DNA from: Oscillospiraceae bacterium
Lineage (GTDB): Bacteria; Bacillota; Clostridia; Oscillospirales; CAG-272
DNA length: 64,000 nt
Direction: 5' to 3'
Assembly (NCBI GenBank): GCA_015065385.1
Contig: SVQK01000044.1
Location: 1 to 64,000, forward strand
The stretch's first letter is position 1; each line of letters begins with the position of its first letter. The position numbers and the translations under genes are program-made. Of the stretch, positions 2,297-61,335 are shown in pieces. The notes below the pieces were generated by a model. That model worked only from the letters and a program-made list of their open reading frames with translations, made no database searches and was not told the DNA's origin.

Positions 2297-2512
2297 TCAG
2301 TTCACGAAAACCTTTGCGGCGAGCCCGCGGTCGATCCCCACCCGGCTTTCCTTCACGTTGACGATCAGGTTTCCGGCCAGCTCGGATACGACGGTGATGT
2401 TGTGGCCGACTACGAAACCGAGGTTTTCAAGGTGCTTCTTCACTTCGGGACTTCCGCTGATTCTGACGATGGTGTGGGCGTTTCCGTCCGCGGCCAGCAA
2501 TAAAGGCATCAT
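2297..2512 (-). CDS. feoA: FeoA domain protein (second copy)
   Basis: 71 aa; FeoA-like (HLENLGFVVGHNITVVSELAGNLIVNVKESRVGIDRGLAAKVFV); first gene of the minus-strand operon. Confidence 0.88.
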   Translation of the reverse strand: MMPLLLAADGNAHTIVRISGSPEVKKHLENLGFVVGHNITVVSELAGNLIVNVKESRVGIDRGLAAKVFVN

Positions 2513-2585
2513 GCTTGTTCTGCTCCCCTGACGGCCTTCCGGGGCCGCCGCCGATGATTAGAAACTGAAATGCGTCTGGCGGATA

Positions 2586-2601
2586 ATTAGCACCAGCTAA
2601 T
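2586..2601. promoter_or_regulatory. Operator-like inverted repeat ATTAG-N6-CTAAT just downstream of the feo promoter
   Basis: attag caccag ctaat; lies just downstream of the -10 box on the minus strand. Confidence 0.55.
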
Positions 2602-2612
2602 CTACCATGCCT

Positions 2613-2641
2613 ATTATAATCCTTTTCATCGGAGTTGTCAA
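2613..2641 (-). promoter_or_regulatory. Sigma-A type promoter of the feo operon
   Basis: Minus strand TTGACA-N17-TATAAT. Confidence 0.8.
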
Positions 2642-2800
2642 GTGCTAACCGACGATTTTTTGCCGCGCGGGGGCTTTTTGTCGAACCATCCGGAATGGGC
2701 GGGCCGGGCGCGGTTCAGTTTTGGCAGCCGTGACAACCGGCGGGGGAGCGGATTTCGCCTCCCCGGGTCCTCCGCTCCTTTCCAAATTGGCCCGGGTATC

Positions 2801-2829
2801 TTGCAAATCCGCGCGGAATCGGGTATAAT
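2801..2829 (+). promoter_or_regulatory. Sigma-A type promoter
   Basis: TTGCAA-N17-TATAAT upstream of the CAT-like gene. Confidence 0.7.
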
Positions 2830-2869
2830 ACCAGTATCATACAGCGTGATTTGCGCGCAGGAGGACGAC

Positions 2870-3553
2870 ATGGCCGAAATCCGACCGATCGACATGGAAC
2901 ATTGGCCCAGAGCCGCCCATTACCGCCGGTTCACCGAGGAGAACCCCTGCGCCGTGACCATGACGGACGATGTGGACGTGACCGAGCTGCGCCGCGCCTG
3001 CAAAGCCTCGGGCCGGTCCTTCTATCTATCCGTGCTCTGGTTGGTGTCCGCCGCGCTCAACGCCCATGAGGAATTCCGCTTGACGGAGGTGGACGCGTCC
3101 GATCTTCCGGCTCCGGTCCCCGCCGTCTGGGACGTGATCCACCCCGCCCACAACGTCTTTCACGAGGAGAGCGAGACCTATACCGGAACCTTTTCGCTCT
3201 TCTCCCCCGATCCCGTCCTGTTCATGGAGCGGGCTGCGGAGGACGTCGAGCGGGCAAAGCGTCTGACGATCCCGGCCGTCCCGACCCCGCCCAACGTGTT
3301 TGACGCGTCCTGCGTTCCGTGGCGTCATTTCACCCACGCCGGAGCTCTGACGGACGCGCCTTCCCTCTCCCCTCTGGTCGTCTGGGGAGGATTCCGGGAA
3401 ACGGAGGTTCGGGGCAAAGCCGTGACGCTCATGCCCTTGTCCGTGACGATCTCCCATGCCGCGGCGGACGGATTCCATCTCGCGCGGTTTCTGAACGAGG
3501 TCGAGGAGGCGGGCTGCGCGCTTGCCGGGTCGATGGGAGGGGTGAGGCTGTGA
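2870..3553 (+). CDS. Chloramphenicol acetyltransferase (CatA) family protein
   Basis: ATG after GGAGG; CAT-like fold signatures and C-terminal active-site-like motif SHAAADGFHLARFLNEVE. Confidence 0.85.
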   Translation: MAEIRPIDMEHWPRAAHYRRFTEENPCAVTMTDDVDVTELRRACKASGRSFYLSVLWLVSAALNAHEEFRLTEVDASDLPAPVPAVWDVIHPAHNVFHEESETYTGTFSLFSPDPVLFMERAAEDVERAKRLTIPAVPTPPNVFDASCVPWRHFTHAGALTDAPSLSPLVVWGGFRETEVRGKAVTLMPLSVTISHAAADGFHLARFLNEVEEAGCALAGSMGGVRL

Positions 3554-6076: not shown

Positions 6077-6115
6077 AAAGTAAGGATGATTCAGACATAA
6101 AAAGGAGCGAAAGCA

Positions 6116-6871
6116 ATGGGTAAAAAGGGAACCTACGGCGTGATCGCCGCCATGAAGATCGAAGCGGAGCACATCGTCGCCGCCATGGAGGAGGCGCGGA
6201 GTGAGACCGTCGGCGGGATCGAGTTCACCGTCGGAAAGATCCGGATGGCCAACGGACACGCGGGCGGGGAAATCGGCGAGGCGGACGTGATCGTGGCGGT
6301 CTGCGGCATCGGCAAGGTGTTCGCCGCCATGTGCGCCCAGACCATGATCGTGAAGTATCACCCCGGTTGTATCATCAACACCGGCGTGGCGGGCAGTCTG
6401 TCCCCGGATATCGGTGTCGGGGACGTGGTGATCGCCGAGGACGTGGTGGAGCACGACTTCGATACCTCCGCGTTCGGGGATCCGGTCGGGCTGATCCCCA
6501 CTTTGAACGTCGTGAAGATGCACTGCTCGGACAAGCTGCGCATGAGCGTGCTCCGGAATGCCGCAGAAACGGTGCTCGCAGGGACGGATTCGAATGTCTT
6601 CACCGACCGCGTGATCGCCACCGGGGATCAGTTCATCGCAGACAGCGCGAAGAAACGCTGGATCGTGGATACGTTCGGCGCGTCGGCATGCGAGATGGAG
6701 GGCGGCGCGATCGGGCAGGTCTGCACGGCCAATCAAATCCCCTTCGCCGTTGTCCGGACCATTTCGGACAGCGCGGACGGCGGGGCGGTGGAGGACTATC
6801 CCTCCTTTGCGAAGCGATCCGCTGAGATTTCCGCGAAGATCGTGCTCCGCGCCGTCACGCTGATCTGGTGA
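6116..6871 (+). CDS. mtnN: 5'-methylthioadenosine/S-adenosylhomocysteine nucleosidase
   Basis: GVIAAMKIEAEHIVAAME, GIGKVFAAMCAQTMI, NTGVAGSLSPDIGVGDVVIAEDVVEHDFD, CEMEGGAIGQVC, RTISDSADG. Confidence 0.96.
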   Translation: MGKKGTYGVIAAMKIEAEHIVAAMEEARSETVGGIEFTVGKIRMANGHAGGEIGEADVIVAVCGIGKVFAAMCAQTMIVKYHPGCIINTGVAGSLSPDIGVGDVVIAEDVVEHDFDTSAFGDPVGLIPTLNVVKMHCSDKLRMSVLRNAAETVLAGTDSNVFTDRVIATGDQFIADSAKKRWIVDTFGASACEMEGGAIGQVCTANQIPFAVVRTISDSADGGAVEDYPSFAKRSAEISAKIVLRAVTLIW

Positions 6872-8021: not shown

Positions 8022-9872
8022 ATGTTCAAACTGCGTCCATTCACCCCCGCGGAGCTGAAACCGGCGGGATGGCTCAGACGGGAGCTTGAGATTCAGGCGG
8101 ACGGGCTGTCCGGGAATCTCGACAAAATCTGGCCCGACGTCCGGGATTCCCGCTGGATCGGCGGAGACCGGGAGGGCTGGGAGCGCGTGCCGTACTGGCT
8201 CGACGGCTTCATTCCGCTCGCCTATCTGCTCGACGACAGGGACAAGATCGCCCGGGCGAAGCGGTATATCGACGCCATTGTTTCCGGACAGAAGGAGGAC
8301 GGCTGGCTCTGTCCCTGCACCGACGAGGAGAGAGCGGGCTACGACATGTGGGCGCTCTACCTCATCGACAAGGTGCTGATGCTGTACTACGACTGCTCCG
8401 GCGACGAACGGATCCCGGACGTGGTGCGCCGCTCGCTCAAAAACCTCGCCGGACACATCGAGGCGCATCCGATCTTCGGCTGGGCGCATTCCCGCTGGTT
8501 CGAATGCCTGATCCCGATCTTCCGGCTGTACGAGACGGAGCCGGAGGAATGGCTGCTCGATCTGGCGCGGACGCTGAGAAAGCAGGGCATGCACTACGAG
8601 GAGATCTACGCCGACTGGAAGTACAAGATCCCGGAGCGCAAATGGCAGTGGGAGTCCCATGTGGTCAATCAGGGCATGGCGCTCAAGGAGGGCGCCCTCG
8701 CTTCTCTGCTGGACGGGGACGAGGCGGACGATTTCTTCTCCGAATACATGCTGTCCCAGCTCTTCGAATACCACGGCACGGCGGTCGGGCACTTCTCCGG
8801 GGACGAATGTCTGGCCGGCCACTCTCCGATTCAGGGAACCGAGCTCTGCGGCGTCACCGAGACGATGTACTCCTACGAGGTGCTCTTTGCGCTGACCGGC
8901 AATCCGATCTGGTCCGACCGGCTCGAGAAGCTGGCCTTCAACGCCCTGCCCGCCACTCTGACGCCGGATATGTGGGGCCATCAGTACGATCAGATGACCA
9001 ATCAGGTCGCGTGCGTGAAGCTGGATCCCGGGCATGTGGTGTTCCTGACCAACTCCGCCGAGTCCCATCTCTACGGACTGGAGCCGAACTACGGCTGCTG
9101 CACGGCGAACTTCAATCAGGGCTGGCCGAAATTCGCCCTGTCTCTGCTCATGCGTACACAGGACGGGATTGCGGTGAACGCCGTCGCCCCCTGCCGTCTG
9201 GAAACGGAGATCGGAGGAGCCGCGGTGACGGTGGAGTGCGACACGATCTATCCCTTCGGCGGGGAAGTGAACTACATCGTGGAAACCGCGTCCCCCGCCG
9301 AATTCGCTCTGACGCTCCGGATCCCGGGAACCTGCTCCGCGGCCTTTGTGGACGGAGAACCCGCCGAGCCCGGGAGCCTGCTCACCCTGAAACGGGTCTG
9401 GGAAGGAAAAAGCGTCGTGACGCTCAGCCTGCGCGTTGAAACGAAATTCGTTCGTCGCCCCACGGGGCTTTACTCCCTCGAGCGCGGGCCTCTGGTCTAC
9501 GCCCTGAAGATCGGGGAGGAGTGGACAAAGCTCGAATACGAGCGGAACGGCGTCGAGCGGATCTTCCCCTACTGCGACTGGGAGGTGCGTCCCACGACGG
9601 AATGGCAGTTCGCTCTGGCATCGGTGGACGGCGAGGGTGTCGGCGTGCGCGAGACTGGGGAGATCGGAGACCTGCCCTTCGCTCCGGAGAACGCCCCCGT
9701 GGTGCTGGACGTCCCCGTATACCGGATCAACTGGGGCTATGAGAACGAATACCGGATGATCGCTCGGGAGAAGCCGCTCTCCGCCCTTCCGATCGGACCG
9801 CTCACCACCGCGCAGTTCATCCCCTACGGCTGCACGAATATCCGGATCACGGAAGTGCCGAAGGCGGAGTGA
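8022..9872 (+). CDS. Glycoside hydrolase family 127-like (DUF1680, beta-L-arabinofuranosidase family)
   Basis: ATG with GGAGG upstream; PYWLDGFIPLAYLLDD, HLYGLEPNYGCCTANFNQGWPKFALSLLM typical of the family. Confidence 0.92.
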   Translation: MFKLRPFTPAELKPAGWLRRELEIQADGLSGNLDKIWPDVRDSRWIGGDREGWERVPYWLDGFIPLAYLLDDRDKIARAKRYIDAIVSGQKEDGWLCPCTDEERAGYDMWALYLIDKVLMLYYDCSGDERIPDVVRRSLKNLAGHIEAHPIFGWAHSRWFECLIPIFRLYETEPEEWLLDLARTLRKQGMHYEEIYADWKYKIPERKWQWESHVVNQGMALKEGALASLLDGDEADDFFSEYMLSQLFEYHGTAVGHFSGDECLAGHSPIQGTELCGVTETMYSYEVLFALTGNPIWSDRLEKLAFNALPATLTPDMWGHQYDQMTNQVACVKLDPGHVVFLTNSAESHLYGLEPNYGCCTANFNQGWPKFALSLLMRTQDGIAVNAVAPCRLETEIGGAAVTVECDTIYPFGGEVNYIVETASPAEFALTLRIPGTCSAAFVDGEPAEPGSLLTLKRVWEGKSVVTLSLRVETKFVRRPTGLYSLERGPLVYALKIGEEWTKLEYERNGVERIFPYCDWEVRPTTEWQFALASVDGEGVGVRETGEIGDLPFAPENAPVVLDVPVYRINWGYENEYRMIAREKPLSALPIGPLTTAQFIPYGCTNIRITEVPKAE

Positions 9873-9875
9873 TAC

Positions 9876-10173
9876 TATAGTGTATTCACACTATGAGGAA
9901 TGAAACGCTGCGCGTTTCGAATCAAATCCCGCTACGCGCGGGAGGCGCCGGGGAGGGACACCATCTCTGGCCGAAGGTGCCCCTCCCCGGAGGGTCCCCC
10001 TTGGCCATATGGCATAAGGCGACAGCTCGCTCCTGTATCCGAATTCGATTTCGTATCCCAATCCTCGCGCGGACTCTGTTACGTCAGCCGACACCATGCG
10101 ATGAATTCCGGCTTCACCGAAATTCATCGGTTTGCTATGCTGACGCGCTGCAAACAGCGATCGAAACGCGCAT
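9876..10173 (-). repeat. Dispersed structured element, family 1, copy A (inverted relative to copy B)
   Basis: 53 nt with one mismatch to 57119-57171 (ATGCGCGTTTCGATCGCTGTTTGCrGCGCGTCAGCATAGCAAACCGATGAATT), 19-nt identical block TTATGCCATATGGCCAAGG, shared hairpins; boundaries approximate. Confidence 0.9.
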
Positions 10174-10212
10174 TGGAATGGGTAAAACGTGCAGTTCAAC
10201 CTTCCTTGCCTC

Positions 10213-10260
10213 GCCCTCCGGGAGAGGTGGCGCCGTCGAAGACGGTGACGGAGAGGGCCG
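10213..10260. repeat. REP-like palindromic intergenic element
   Basis: gccctccgggagaggtggcgccgtcgaagacggtgacggagagggc folds on itself (GCCCTCC/GGAGAGGGC arms, GTCgaaGAC hairpin). Confidence 0.5.
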
Positions 10261-10272
10261 AAATGAAAAACT

Positions 10273-49446: not shown

Positions 49447-50397
49447 ATGCGGATTCTGTTTATGGGAACGCCCTCCCTCGCCGCCGAAACGCTGCGAGCA
49501 GTCCATGAAAAAGACGGCGTCCGGGTCGTCGGCGTCGTGACGAGGCCCGACAAGCCGAAGGGACGGGGCATGAAGCTCATTCCGTCCCCGGTGAAGGAAT
49601 ACGCGCTCGAGCACGGGATCCCGGTGTTTCAGCCGAAGACCCTGAAAGACGGCGCGTTCCGGGAGGAGCTCGAAGCGCTCGATCCCGAGCTGATCGTCGT
49701 CGCGGCCTACGGGAACATTCTCCCGCCCTATGTGCTGGACTACCCGAAATACGGATGCGTCAACGCGCACGGATCCCTTCTGCCGAAATACCGGGGAGCG
49801 GCTCCCATCGAGCGGGCCATCATGGACGGCGAAACGGTGACGGGCATCACGGCAATGTTCATGGACGAAGGGCTCGACACGGGGGACATGATCGCGGCGT
49901 ATCCCTGTCCCATCGAGGAAGAGGACGACGGCGGGACGCTGACGGAGAAGCTGTCGAAGCTGGCCGGACGCGCGATGTGCGACGTGATCGGCGCGATCGA
50001 AGCAGGGACCCTCACACGGACGCCCCAGCCCGCGGAGGGATCCACCTACGCCGCGAAGATCGGGCGGGAGGATCAGCGGATCGACTTCACAAAATCCGCG
50101 CGCGAGGTCTTCAACCGGATCCGCGCCCTGAATCCCGCGCCCTGCGCCGAGACGACCCTGCCGGACGGATCCCTGCTCAAGATCACCGACGCGCGGCCCG
50201 CGGATTTTCTCACCGAAGGCGCCGTTCCCGGGACGGTGCTCGAGGCGGACGGAAAGGGAGCGGGCAGAATCGTCGTCGCCTGCGGGGAGGGAGCCGTCGC
50301 GGTCTTTGGACTGATCCCCATGGGCAAGAAAAAGATGACCGCGGGAGATTTCGTCCGCGGAAGAAAGATCGCCGCGGGGGACGCGCTCGGCGGATGA
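49447..50397 (+). CDS. fmt: Methionyl-tRNA formyltransferase
   Basis: MRILFMGTPSLAAETL, VTRPDKPKGRGMKLIPSPVKEYAL, NAHGSLLPKYRGAAPIERAIMDGE. Confidence 0.97.
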   Translation: MRILFMGTPSLAAETLRAVHEKDGVRVVGVVTRPDKPKGRGMKLIPSPVKEYALEHGIPVFQPKTLKDGAFREELEALDPELIVVAAYGNILPPYVLDYPKYGCVNAHGSLLPKYRGAAPIERAIMDGETVTGITAMFMDEGLDTGDMIAAYPCPIEEEDDGGTLTEKLSKLAGRAMCDVIGAIEAGTLTRTPQPAEGSTYAAKIGREDQRIDFTKSAREVFNRIRALNPAPCAETTLPDGSLLKITDARPADFLTEGAVPGTVLEADGKGAGRIVVACGEGAVAVFGLIPMGKKKMTAGDFVRGRKIAAGDALGG

Positions 50398-50464
50398 ACC
50401 GCTGAAAAGGTCTTGCGGCTGCTGTTTTGGAATAACTCTCCCGAAGGAAGAAGGAGGCGGACTC

Positions 50465-51160
50465 ATGCGCTTCGGTACGGTCGATACCACTTATCTGATT
50501 TTCGTTCTTCCCGCGCTGCTGTTCACGCTGTGGGCGCAGTTCCGGGTCAAGACGACCTTTGCGAAATACCGGGGGCTCCCCTCCGACCGGAATATGACCG
50601 GGGCGGACGCGGCAAGGCTCGTGCTGGAACAGAACGGCGTCACGGGCGTCACGGTCACGCGGATCGCCGGCCAGCTCACGGATCACTACGACCCGAAGGA
50701 GAACGTGATCCGTCTGAGCGAAAGCGTGTACGACGCACGGACGGCGGCAGCGGTCGGCGTAGCGGCGCACGAGGCGGGACACGCGGTTCAGTACGCCGTG
50801 GGGTACGCCCCCATCCGCGCCCGGCAGACGGTGATCCCCGTGACCAAGATCGGGACATACGCCGCGTGGCCCCTCTTTATCGTGGGGATGATCTTCGCGG
50901 CGCGGCCTCTGCAGCTGGCGGGGATCGTTCTGTTCAGCGCGTGCGTGCTCTTTCAGCTGCTGACCCTTCCGGTAGAGATCAACGCGAGCCGAAGGGCGAT
51001 GAACTCCCTCGAGACGGCGGGTCTGTCCGAAGAGGGGCTGAAAGCGGCGAAATCCGTGCTGACCGCCGCCGCTCTGACCTATGTTGCCGCGCTGGCTTCC
51101 GCGATCGCTAACCTTCTGCGCCTCCTCTCGCTGTTCAACTCCGGATCCCGCAGGCGCTGA
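50465..51160 (+). CDS. Zinc metallopeptidase, YugP-like
   Basis: VGVAAHEAGHAVQYAVGYAPIRARQTVIPVTKIG, ALTYVAALASAIANLLRLLSLF. Confidence 0.92.
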   Translation: MRFGTVDTTYLIFVLPALLFTLWAQFRVKTTFAKYRGLPSDRNMTGADAARLVLEQNGVTGVTVTRIAGQLTDHYDPKENVIRLSESVYDARTAAAVGVAAHEAGHAVQYAVGYAPIRARQTVIPVTKIGTYAAWPLFIVGMIFAARPLQLAGIVLFSACVLFQLLTLPVEINASRRAMNSLETAGLSEEGLKAAKSVLTAAALTYVAALASAIANLLRLLSLFNSGSRRR

Positions 51161-56906: not shown

Positions 56907-57118
56907 GCCGTCATGCCGCCCATGGCAAACAGAATCACGGCGCCGCGGCGGACAAACCTGCGGCGCTTTCCTCATTTTGGACAGGAAGGCTTTATTACTG
57001 AGACAGCAAACTGGGATGTGTTCACACAACTGACCGAAAAGAATTCAAGACCAGAGCTGAACCGATCTGTTGCAGCGCAAAGGGGAATGATATCTACCGT
57101 TCTCAGATTACTCCTTTT

Positions 57119-57412
57119 ATGCGCGTTTCGATCGCTGTTTGCGGCGCGTCAGCATAGCAAACCGATGAATTACGGCGTAGACGGAATTCATCGCATGTTT
57201 CAGCTGAAGTAACATAGTCCGCGCGAGGACAATGCGCTAAACAGTCGGGTTTGGTTGAAGGAACGAGCTGTACTGTTATGCCATATGGCCAAGGAAACCC
57301 CCGCACGGGGGGAAACCTGCGGCCAGAGCTGGTGTCCCCCCGTGCCTCCCGCCCTGAGCAGGGCATTTTTCCAGAAACGCGCAGCGTTTCGTTTTTCATA
57401 GTAATAGTATTA
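57119..57412 (+). repeat. Dispersed structured element, family 1, copy B
   Basis: Homologous to 9876-10173 in opposite orientation; central hairpin 57303-57345 conserved by compensatory change. Confidence 0.9.
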
Positions 57413-57430
57413 GACCGGAGAAAGAACAAG

Positions 57431-58558
57431 ATGGACGAACCGAAGGAGAAAATCAGGGGGATCGTGACCCGCGGCGTGGGCGGGCTGTACGGCGTGCGGA
57501 CCGCGGAGGATCCGGACACGGAGATCCTGTGCCGGGCGCGGGGGATCCTCCGGCAGAAAAAGACCTCCCCGACCGTGGGAGACGACGTCTGGATCGAGCT
57601 GTCCGACGCGAGGGATCCCGGAGAAGAGGCGGCTGAGGAGCCGGAGGAATCCGGAAAGAAGACTCCCGCCGGGGGACACGCCGGACCTGCGAACCGCCGA
57701 TCCCGGAAACCGATCCGCGGAAAGAGCGCGATCGAGCGGGGAGAGGCGGATTTTGACCGGGGCGTGGACGTGGACTGGGTGATCGACGCGGTGGACGAGA
57801 GGCGCAGTCTCATGATCCGCCCTCCCGTCGCCAACCTCGACTACCTCTTCGCGGTGATTCCCTGCGCGTCACCGGAGCCGGACCTTCTGACCGCGGACAA
57901 GCTGACCGTCATCGCCGAAAACTACGGGATCGAATGCGTGATCGCGGTGAACAAGGCGGATCTCGATCCGGGCCGCGCCGAGGAAATTCGCCGGATCTAC
58001 GGGACGGCGGGACTGCGCGTCTTTCCGCTGTCCGCCGCGTCCGGAGAGGGCGTGGACGAGCTGCGGGCGTATCTCTGCGAGATCAGCCGGTCCCGGTCCG
58101 ACGGGCGGCATGTGAGCGGAGCCTTCGCGGGGGTGTCCGGCGCGGGAAAGTCCACCCTCATGACCGCGCTCTTCCCCGATCTGAAGCTGGCGACGGGGAG
58201 CGTGAGCCGCAAGATCGAGCGCGGACGCCACACCACCCGCCATGTGGAGCTGTTTCCGATCCGCATGGAGACGGGCGGCATATTCTGGCTGGCCGACACG
58301 CCGGGATTCTCCATGCTGGACTTCACCCGCTTCGACTTTTTCCCCTATGACGAGCTGGCGTCCTCCTTCCGGGAATTCGACGACTGCCTCGGGAAATGCC
58401 GCTATACCAAATGTACCCATCTGCGCGAGGAAGGATGCGCCGTGCTCGAAAAACTGCGTGCCGGCGGGATCGCCCCGAGCCGCCACGACAGCTATGTGCG
58501 GATCTGGGAGGAACAGAGGAAGGTGCCGGAATGGAAGAGAAAACAGAACGCGGAATGA
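57431..58558 (+). CDS. rsgA: Ribosome small subunit-dependent GTPase A
   Basis: IRGIVTRGVGGLYGVR; NKADLDPGRAEEIRRIY; GAFAGVSGAGKSTLMTALFPDLKLATGSVSRKIERGRHTTRHVELF; DTPGFSMLDF; Cys/His zinc site. Confidence 0.95.
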   Translation: MDEPKEKIRGIVTRGVGGLYGVRTAEDPDTEILCRARGILRQKKTSPTVGDDVWIELSDARDPGEEAAEEPEESGKKTPAGGHAGPANRRSRKPIRGKSAIERGEADFDRGVDVDWVIDAVDERRSLMIRPPVANLDYLFAVIPCASPEPDLLTADKLTVIAENYGIECVIAVNKADLDPGRAEEIRRIYGTAGLRVFPLSAASGEGVDELRAYLCEISRSRSDGRHVSGAFAGVSGAGKSTLMTALFPDLKLATGSVSRKIERGRHTTRHVELFPIRMETGGIFWLADTPGFSMLDFTRFDFFPYDELASSFREFDDCLGKCRYTKCTHLREEGCAVLEKLRAGGIAPSRHDSYVRIWEEQRKVPEWKRKQNAE

Positions 58559-60950: not shown

Positions 60951-61063
60951 GCGAAATCCGTTCAACGAAAAAACTGTCGCCCTCCGCCTCCGGTCACGGA
61001 TCGATCGGAGCAGAGGAGCGGCAGTTTTATTGCTGGTACAGTAAACTTATACTATTCTCAGCC

Positions 61064-61335
61064 TAAAAGGCTAACTTTATGGGTTTTGAACGCTTCATGT
61101 AGGAGGCGAATCGCCTTGCGGCTCAACTTGTTGAGCGGATGGGCATTGCGTGCGATAACTCTGATAAGGTTGGATAGCTAAATTGGTGTGCTGAAGGTAA
61201 GCAATACTGTATGGGTACAGCCAATCCTTTTCCCCTTTCAAAGTTCTTTGCCGGCTCAACTTGTTGAGCGAGCTTTCATCCGAATGAAAGCCGCGTTTCT
61301 CCTTTTAGCTTGAGATTAGTATGAACGCCGGTTTT
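61064..61335 (+). repeat. Dispersed element, family 2, copy D (long form with internal insertion between two GCTCAACTTGTTGAGC hairpins)
   Basis: GCTCAACTTGTTGAGC at 61121-61136 and 61254-61269; aligns in two blocks to 10338-10457. Confidence 0.75.

Follow-up and report, generated by a model that had tools for sequence, protein, structure and literature searches.

A modular, high-copy intergenic repeat with a large covarying fold in an Oscillospiraceae genome

The window, the whole 64,000-nt stretch of DNA analysed here, contains two copies of a high-copy repeat family, referred to as copy A (minus strand) and copy B (plus strand). The family is probably a non-autonomous, modular, mobile intergenic repeat that behaves like BOX, ERIC or MITE elements and that spreads, or functions, through a folded RNA or a single DNA strand. 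The fold is real, and the element behaves as mobile.

Copies A and B are 79% identical across 284 bases, and the blastn E value of 1e-61 shows that this likeness is not due to chance. All motifs quoted for the two copies in the original prediction were found at their positions, including the common 53-nt block with its single mismatch (at 10149 in A), the 19-nt block TTATGCCATATGGCCAAGG (Table 1), the CGATGAATT hairpin and the terminal GAAACGC-N3-GCGTTTC. The central stem reads CCGGGGAGGG/CCCTCCCCGG in A (9990–9981 with 9957–9948) and GCACGGGGGG/CCCCCCGTGC in B (57303–57312 with 57336–57345), and four of its ten pairs are changed on both sides, as had been claimed. These double changes do not amount to four independent events, since they mostly reflect one difference between two recurring stem versions; across the family the central stem exists in a few such versions, and independent support comes from the large alignments described below. 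The proposed dispersed element of ~290 bp is indeed dispersed, with a family of at least 140 copies in the genome, but its extent was set too short. Self-comparison places the repeat zone at about 9870–10261 for A and about 57014–57442 for B, zones of about 390–430 bp and thus below 500 bp; the element has a GC content of about 60%. Each copy folded better than 200 of 200 shuffles (z = -7.1 for A and -3.5 for B).

Table 1. Coordinates of element features and of empty orthologous sites in the window
Feature	Position	Strand	Basis
Empty orthologous site; related species G005 has a divergent element pair, 732 bp vs 60 bp here	6077..6137		flank alignment
Copy A, entire repeat zone: module X + linker + class I element + 3' palindrome	9870..10261	-	self-comparison, own-genome loci, depth <=49
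Copy A, 3' palindrome CATAGTGTGAATACACTAT	9877..9895	-	same place after terminal hairpin in ~12 copies
Copy A, terminal hairpin GAAACGC-GCA-GCGTTTC, terminator-like, U tract poor	9902..9918	-	sequence
Copy A, 3' domain	9926..10093	-	CM: R1 E 1.9e-41, R2 E 1.6e-27; pair counts
Copy A, 3'-domain hairpins: central; small	9990-9948; 9943-9927	-	
Copy A, 3'-domain parts: CCGCGCGAGG, then variable arm, TTATGCCATATGGCCAAGG	10072-10063; 10017-9999	-	
Copy A, 5' domain, class I four-way junction: ATGC[GCG..CGC][GTTTGC..GCAAAC][GATGAATT..AATTCATC]GCAT	10095..10173	-	nhmmer; pair counts, 67 copies
Copy A, first bases ATGCGCG	10173-10167	-	ATGCGCG conservation
Module X, 5' of copy A: GCCCTCTCCGTCACCGTC-TTC-GACGG...CTCCCGGAGGGCGAGGCAAGG, separate hairpin repeat	10204..10258	-	pattern search + alignment
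Second empty orthologous site; G005 with element 552 bp vs 114 bp here	50390..50504		flank alignment
Copy B, entire repeat zone	57014..57442	+	self-comparison
Copy B, unit 5' end motif GGATGTGTTCACACAAC, possible degenerate terminal repeat	57014..57030	+	
Copy B, 5' domain, class I four-way junction	57119..57200	+	nhmmer; pair counts
Copy B, 3' domain	57198..57367	+	CM: R1 E 1.4e-47, R2 E 5.7e-41; pair counts
Copy B, 3'-domain parts: CCGCGCGAGG; TTATGCCATATGGCCAAGG	57219-57228; 57276-57294	+	
Copy B, proposed pseudoknot strand GGCC, partner = loop GGCC at 57321-57324	57287..57290	+	
Copy B, 3'-domain hairpins: central; small	57303-57345; 57351-57364	+	
Copy B, terminal hairpin GAAACGC-GCA-GCGTTTC, then GTTTTT; intrinsic terminator-like	57374..57390	+	terminator scan
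Copy B, 3' end CATAGTAATAGTATTA	57397..57412	+	sequence comparison

Anatomy and fold of the family

The family is modular, with 5'-domain classes, loop inserts and stem versions as its variable parts. Copies of both main classes start with ATGCGCG, which is exact in 138 of the 139 scorable copies and carries a single change in the remaining one. The 5' domain comes in exchangeable classes. Class I, to which A and B belong, forms a four-way junction, while class II (for example L022, L026 and L029) and another class frequent in G024 differ between ATGCGCG and CCGCGCGAGG. The 3' domain is universal and consists of CCGCGCGAGG, a variable arm, TTAYGC-N4-RGCCAAGG, the central hairpin with loop GGCY, a small hairpin and the terminal hairpin. 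A few fixed loops can carry additional hairpins as inserts. The terminal hairpin was found in 142 of 160 copies, compared with 5% of random windows, and a U-rich tract follows it in only 57 of the 160. A conserved open reading frame was not found in the element copies. A coding peptide was considered and rejected; an ATG and a short frame exist, yet the frame is interrupted by TAG in many copies and by indels of 3–4 nt.

Repeated sequence also flanks the element upstream, as module X, as a 'CTGAACCGGTCTG' type and as a spacer common to divergent pairs. Module X has 39 pattern matches in the genome, most but not all of them directly 5' of a class I element. The stem of its hairpin CCGTCACNGTC-TTC-GACNGYGCCACCTCTCCC (10204–10258 in the window) varies in a paired manner. 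Divergent pairs contain 40 of the 169 copies examined. Strongly diverged versions in species G016 (L057 at 2417–3353, L058, L034 and L038) form inverted pairs around 360–640 bp of hairpin-rich non-coding DNA and have the appearance of an earlier or alternative unit form.

The original prediction of an undescribed structured RNA rested on covariation, which holds in alignments of 145 and 67 distinct copies, across several species and against slide and shuffle controls. Pairs of the 3' domain were counted in 145 distinct copies, in an alignment fitted to a model having that structure; it therefore leans toward the tested structure, which makes the slide control important. The first covariance model (R1) had a poor RNAalifold structure of 18 pairs, and R2 was used instead for the pair counts. 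In the 3' domain, 29 of 32 pairs were changed on both sides, giving 446 double-change cells, a figure inflated by relatedness among copies and not a count of events. Paired cells made up 93.5% of the total, against 42–58% with slid partners. None of 500 shuffles attained the observed values, and slid structures yielded at most 82 double-change cells. The class I 5' domain, with 67 copies aligned by MAFFT alone, had 98.6% of its cells paired (32–42% in slid controls) and 158 double-change cells, to be read with the same caution.

G-U wobbles far exceed A-C mismatches, at 225:64 and 60:4 in the two domains. A strand-neutral process would give equality, so one particular strand is selected for the fold. 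Within the inner central stem (columns 214–220), G-U does not rise above A-C. This, together with the recurrence of stem versions as blocks, would be expected if template-switch (quasipalindrome) correction kept DNA palindromes perfect and the RNA were not selected. Such an origin of the pairing is quite improbable, as the G-U excess over A-C gives a strand asymmetry in both domains, the pseudoknot covariation is unlike that of a palindrome, and the fold includes a long-range GGG/CCY closing helix as well as the four-way junction.

Comparison of the copies points to a likely pseudoknot between a loop and a strand. In every aligned standard loop, the base at R in RGCCAAGG is complementary to that at Y in the GGCY loop, with GGCC/GGCC in 109 copies, AGCC/GGCT in nine and AGCC/GGCC in none. 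Three copies with enlarged loops break the rule, combining A with C, and the nine A/T copies may stem from few founding events. A competing small hairpin, GCC-ATAT-GGC, carries a C-A mismatch in most A/T copies. A GCGCG/CGCGC closure is a further candidate pairing. A long helix joining the 5' GCGCGTTTC to the terminal hairpin, seen in single-sequence folds, was rejected as not conserved, because the terminal stem varies and the 5' end does not.

Constraint on the fold is visible at shallow depth. Among copies at least 90% alike, differences amounted to 13/1000 at paired against 87/1006 at unpaired positions of the 5' domain, and to 49/979 against 133/1632 in the 3' domain. This fits selection along the lineage of active source copies or a function of individual copies, and is at odds with unconstrained decay of every copy once inserted. 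It is unexpected of a passive MITE that so complex a fold should be conserved even among close copies, and individual copies could be functional.

Distribution, insertion sites and mobility

Searching the genome and its relatives, a check suggested with the original prediction, identified a multicopy family in the host and in related species of its genus. The 4.3 Mb host assembly yielded 43 copies by blast, and a covariance model of the 3' domain, built from the copies, found at least 143 matches among 150 scored candidates. Many contigs of the genome start or stop inside an element copy; the MAG assemblies break at the repeat, and these copy numbers are therefore underestimates. Copies were examined as individual loci taken from contigs, giving a set of 169. 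Five of the 25 species of the genus are carriers, with at least 113, 110, 69, 65 and 32 matches, and the other 20 have no element among the matches listed. A DNA pattern search of a species collection matched the 'uncultured Ruminococcus sp.' MAGs RUG10688, RUG12348 and RUG12770, relatives that are presumably of rumen origin, as we read their RUG names. The sole other match in that collection, in Desulforhopalus (L116), was dismissed as chance; the covariance model finds nothing there.

Across 198 genomes of the bacterial family, weak relatives occurred in one further genus only (g41). These (L233–L239, in G171 and G064) are short single hairpins, AGCCAAGG...GAAAACTTCGGCGTCTGAGATGGTGTC... and AGCCAAGG...CTTCGGCGTCTGAGATGGTGTC, which have the core loop motif and GCCAAGG in common with the element family and are possibly its minimal or ancestral form. 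In a motif search of 392 genomes of the bacterial class, the host was the sole match, and the viral, phage and plasmid collections searched contained no match to the element.

None of the 169 copies lies inside a gene, as called by a simple program based on codon usage that was written for this analysis. Copies occupied 86 of the 307 tandem gaps of at least 60 bp and 17 of the 66 convergent ones; divergent gaps of that length were the least used (8 of 74). The 3' neighbour was on the same strand in 74 cases and on the opposite strand in 82, which gives no orientation bias. These data bear on the idea of a cis-acting, riboswitch-like leader or attenuator for downstream genes, in which CCCCC/GGGGG/CCCCC could form two alternative hairpins. 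Some copies do stand directly 5' of a ribosome-binding site and start codon, as B does before rsgA, and the observed central stem versions permit alternative pairing. A leader is nevertheless very improbable given the 74:82 orientation, with many copies, A included, facing a converging gene, neighbours that are unrelated genes with no consistent codirectional class, and a patchy species distribution.

Flank alignment between species revealed about 12 orthologous loci that are short gaps without the element; two empty sites lie in the window (Table 1). Examples of gene pairs with and without the element are gaps of 385 bp in G000 against 18 bp in G018, and of 393 bp against 28 bp in G005. Species have few flanking genes in common, with gene orientation reversed in some. 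The interspecies empty sites and the scarcity of common flanks indicate turnover of positions at the species scale. The empty-site comparisons are interspecies only, and the intergenic sequence is too diverged for junctions or a target duplication to be read. A consistent terminal inverted repeat was not found, as unit ends vary by subtype. In some units the 5' end is TATACTRTTCTCAG or GGATGTGTTCACAC and the 3' end is CATAGTGTGAACACACTAT, in which many units finish; further subtypes end differently. Some unit ends begin with TATACT or TATAGT. One terminal inverted repeat for all copies was rejected, since GGATGTGTTCACACAAC is common to only a few units (in the host genome five element units have it at their 5' end, and there is one further, unrelated match at two mismatches). 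A cassette array was also rejected, the spacers between copies being ordinary host genes. The suggestion that the element is a MITE stands in part: its copy number, its distribution across species and the orthologous loci that lack it identify a mobile repeat, but a strict MITE is not established.

A second dispersed repeat with a classic MITE look lies at 61049–61325; it is ~277 bp long, has inverted ends TATACTATTCTCAGCCTAAAAGG / TATACTAATCTCAAGCTAAAAGG and occurs in several copies. Its TATACTRTTCTCAG end also starts some class I units, which we regard as a lead only.

The same observations weigh on whether the family is a widely spread gene for a functional host noncoding RNA, such as a small RNA or an RNA-protein particle, with each copy transcribed and ending in its own terminator. 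Several features agree with this, namely the complex covarying fold, the near-invariant ATGCGCG, CCGCGCGAGG, GGCCAAGG and loop GGCC, the slower change of paired sites even among close copies, and the terminator-like 3' end. It is unlikely all the same, for the element is missing from 20 of 25 congeneric species among the matches listed, insertion sites mostly differ between species, the 5' flanks fall in several unrelated families, and the U-rich tract accompanies only 57 of 160 copies. No sigma-70-like promoter was found in the regions scanned near A and B.

Partner enzymes and known repeat families

If the family is a non-autonomous mobile repeat, as we consider probable, an enzyme would have to act on it in trans. 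Three partner families were searched in the carriers, Y1 transposases (PF01797), TnpB/Cas12f-like proteins (PF07282) and PF00078. Neither Y1 nor TnpB/Cas12f-like proteins occurred in any of the five, so RAYT/IS200 and TnpB partners were rejected. All five carriers had a reverse transcriptase (RT)-domain match, with families mutually unrelated or common to non-carriers too; a retron, group II intron or other RT partner was rejected for that reason. A 425-aa RT-domain protein at L165 (3930–5205; G000 C45:187134) is distant from other RTs of the genus and is possibly defence-related. An autonomous version with an internal ORF was considered and rejected, as most lone 5' domains examined lay near contig ends. 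There was no convincing gene in the 360–640 bp interiors of the G016 inverted pairs and no recurrent dedicated ORF beside the examined copies. Against our preferred explanation stand the failure to find a transposase or other partner among the searched families in carriers and, at the ends of the units, the failure to find consistent inverted repeats or a target duplication.

Comparison with Rfam, also suggested with the original prediction, gave no family match to the element at the gathering score, a tRNA being the sole match in the window. With lax thresholds, three regions gave no meaningful weak matches to the element. It is very improbable that the family belongs, as a non-autonomous form, to a mobile class already known, be it IS200/IS605 (PATE, TnpB omega RNA), REP/RAYT, HEARO/IscB or a group I/II intron remnant. 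Size is comparable, ends are hairpin-rich and copy number is high, but Y1 transposase and TnpB-like protein are found in none of the carriers, and the Rfam families without a match, at lax thresholds too, include HEARO and the introns. The HEARO or IscB-IsrB omega RNA is a structured RNA of about 300 nt that can be dispersed in many copies. The present family resembles it in both respects and differs in having neither a Rfam HEARO match nor a recurrent dedicated ORF beside the examined copies. REPs are short single hairpins. Like REP/BIME repeats with RAYT, the family forms many-copy intergenic palindromes, some in oppositely oriented pairs; unlike REPs, its units are not short single hairpins, and its carriers are without the Y1 family.

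The closest likeness in behaviour is to small interspersed repeats. The BOX elements of Streptococcus are folded, non-autonomous repeats of intergenic regions, built from modules (Croucher et al. 2011, PMC3049150). Compared by described features and not by sequence, both families are high-copy, modular and intergenic, have a predicted folded RNA, variable internal modules and no transposase of their own, and cluster with other repeats. The fold described here is much larger and closed, with a four-way junction, a likely pseudoknot and a terminal hairpin, and it has demonstrated covariation and strand asymmetry, several 5'-domain classes and inverted pairs. As a group, MITEs are short intergenic elements whose transcripts fold (PMC10969869). 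The family resembles them, ERIC and Correia included, in its length below 500 bp, its non-coding and intergenic nature, its tens to hundreds of copies, its patchy distribution and its folded transcript, which is predicted here. MITEs are AT-rich, whereas this element is GC-rich, and their fold is one hairpin between inverted ends, whereas the fold here is complex and neither consistent terminal inverted repeats nor target duplication were found. In S. pneumoniae, SPRITE consists of one 18-bp duplex and a U-rich tract (PMC3049150). It too is a dispersed repeat with a terminator-like hairpin at its end; here such a hairpin forms the final part of a fold of ~290 nt. Because its fold is large, closed and strand-asymmetric, with a likely pseudoknot, and no consistent terminal inverted repeat was found, the family is not filed as a strict MITE; it is a new member of the small-interspersed-repeat kind.

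Proposed mechanism and significance

In the mechanism that we propose for a mobile, non-autonomous repeat, the folded strand, as RNA or single-stranded DNA, would be the form recognised by an enzyme during copying or mobilisation in trans. Copies that fold well would leave descendants, and covariation would in this way build up between subfamilies. After insertion, the terminal hairpin of some copies may serve neighbouring genes as a transcription terminator or 3'-end stabiliser. A possible though rather doubtful variant is a new class of mobile element that encodes no protein and for which a large folded RNA, or a defined single DNA strand, is the vehicle of movement or the target of selection. 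Its core of ATGCGCG...CCGCGCGAGG, GGCCAAGG and the GGCY-loop pseudoknot would then be the recognition fold of an enzyme acting in trans, with exchangeable peripheral domains.

Small interspersed repeats are commonly regarded as decaying hairpins. Herein, several hundred natural variants from five species record a large two-domain fold, a likely pseudoknot and a selected strand. This makes the data set well suited to the question of whether selection on a bacterial non-autonomous element acts at the level of RNA or of single-stranded DNA. The contrast between five carriers and 20 non-carriers within one genus offers a route to the enzyme by presence and absence. The repeat also helps account for the short contigs of these rumen genomes, whose assemblies break at its copies.
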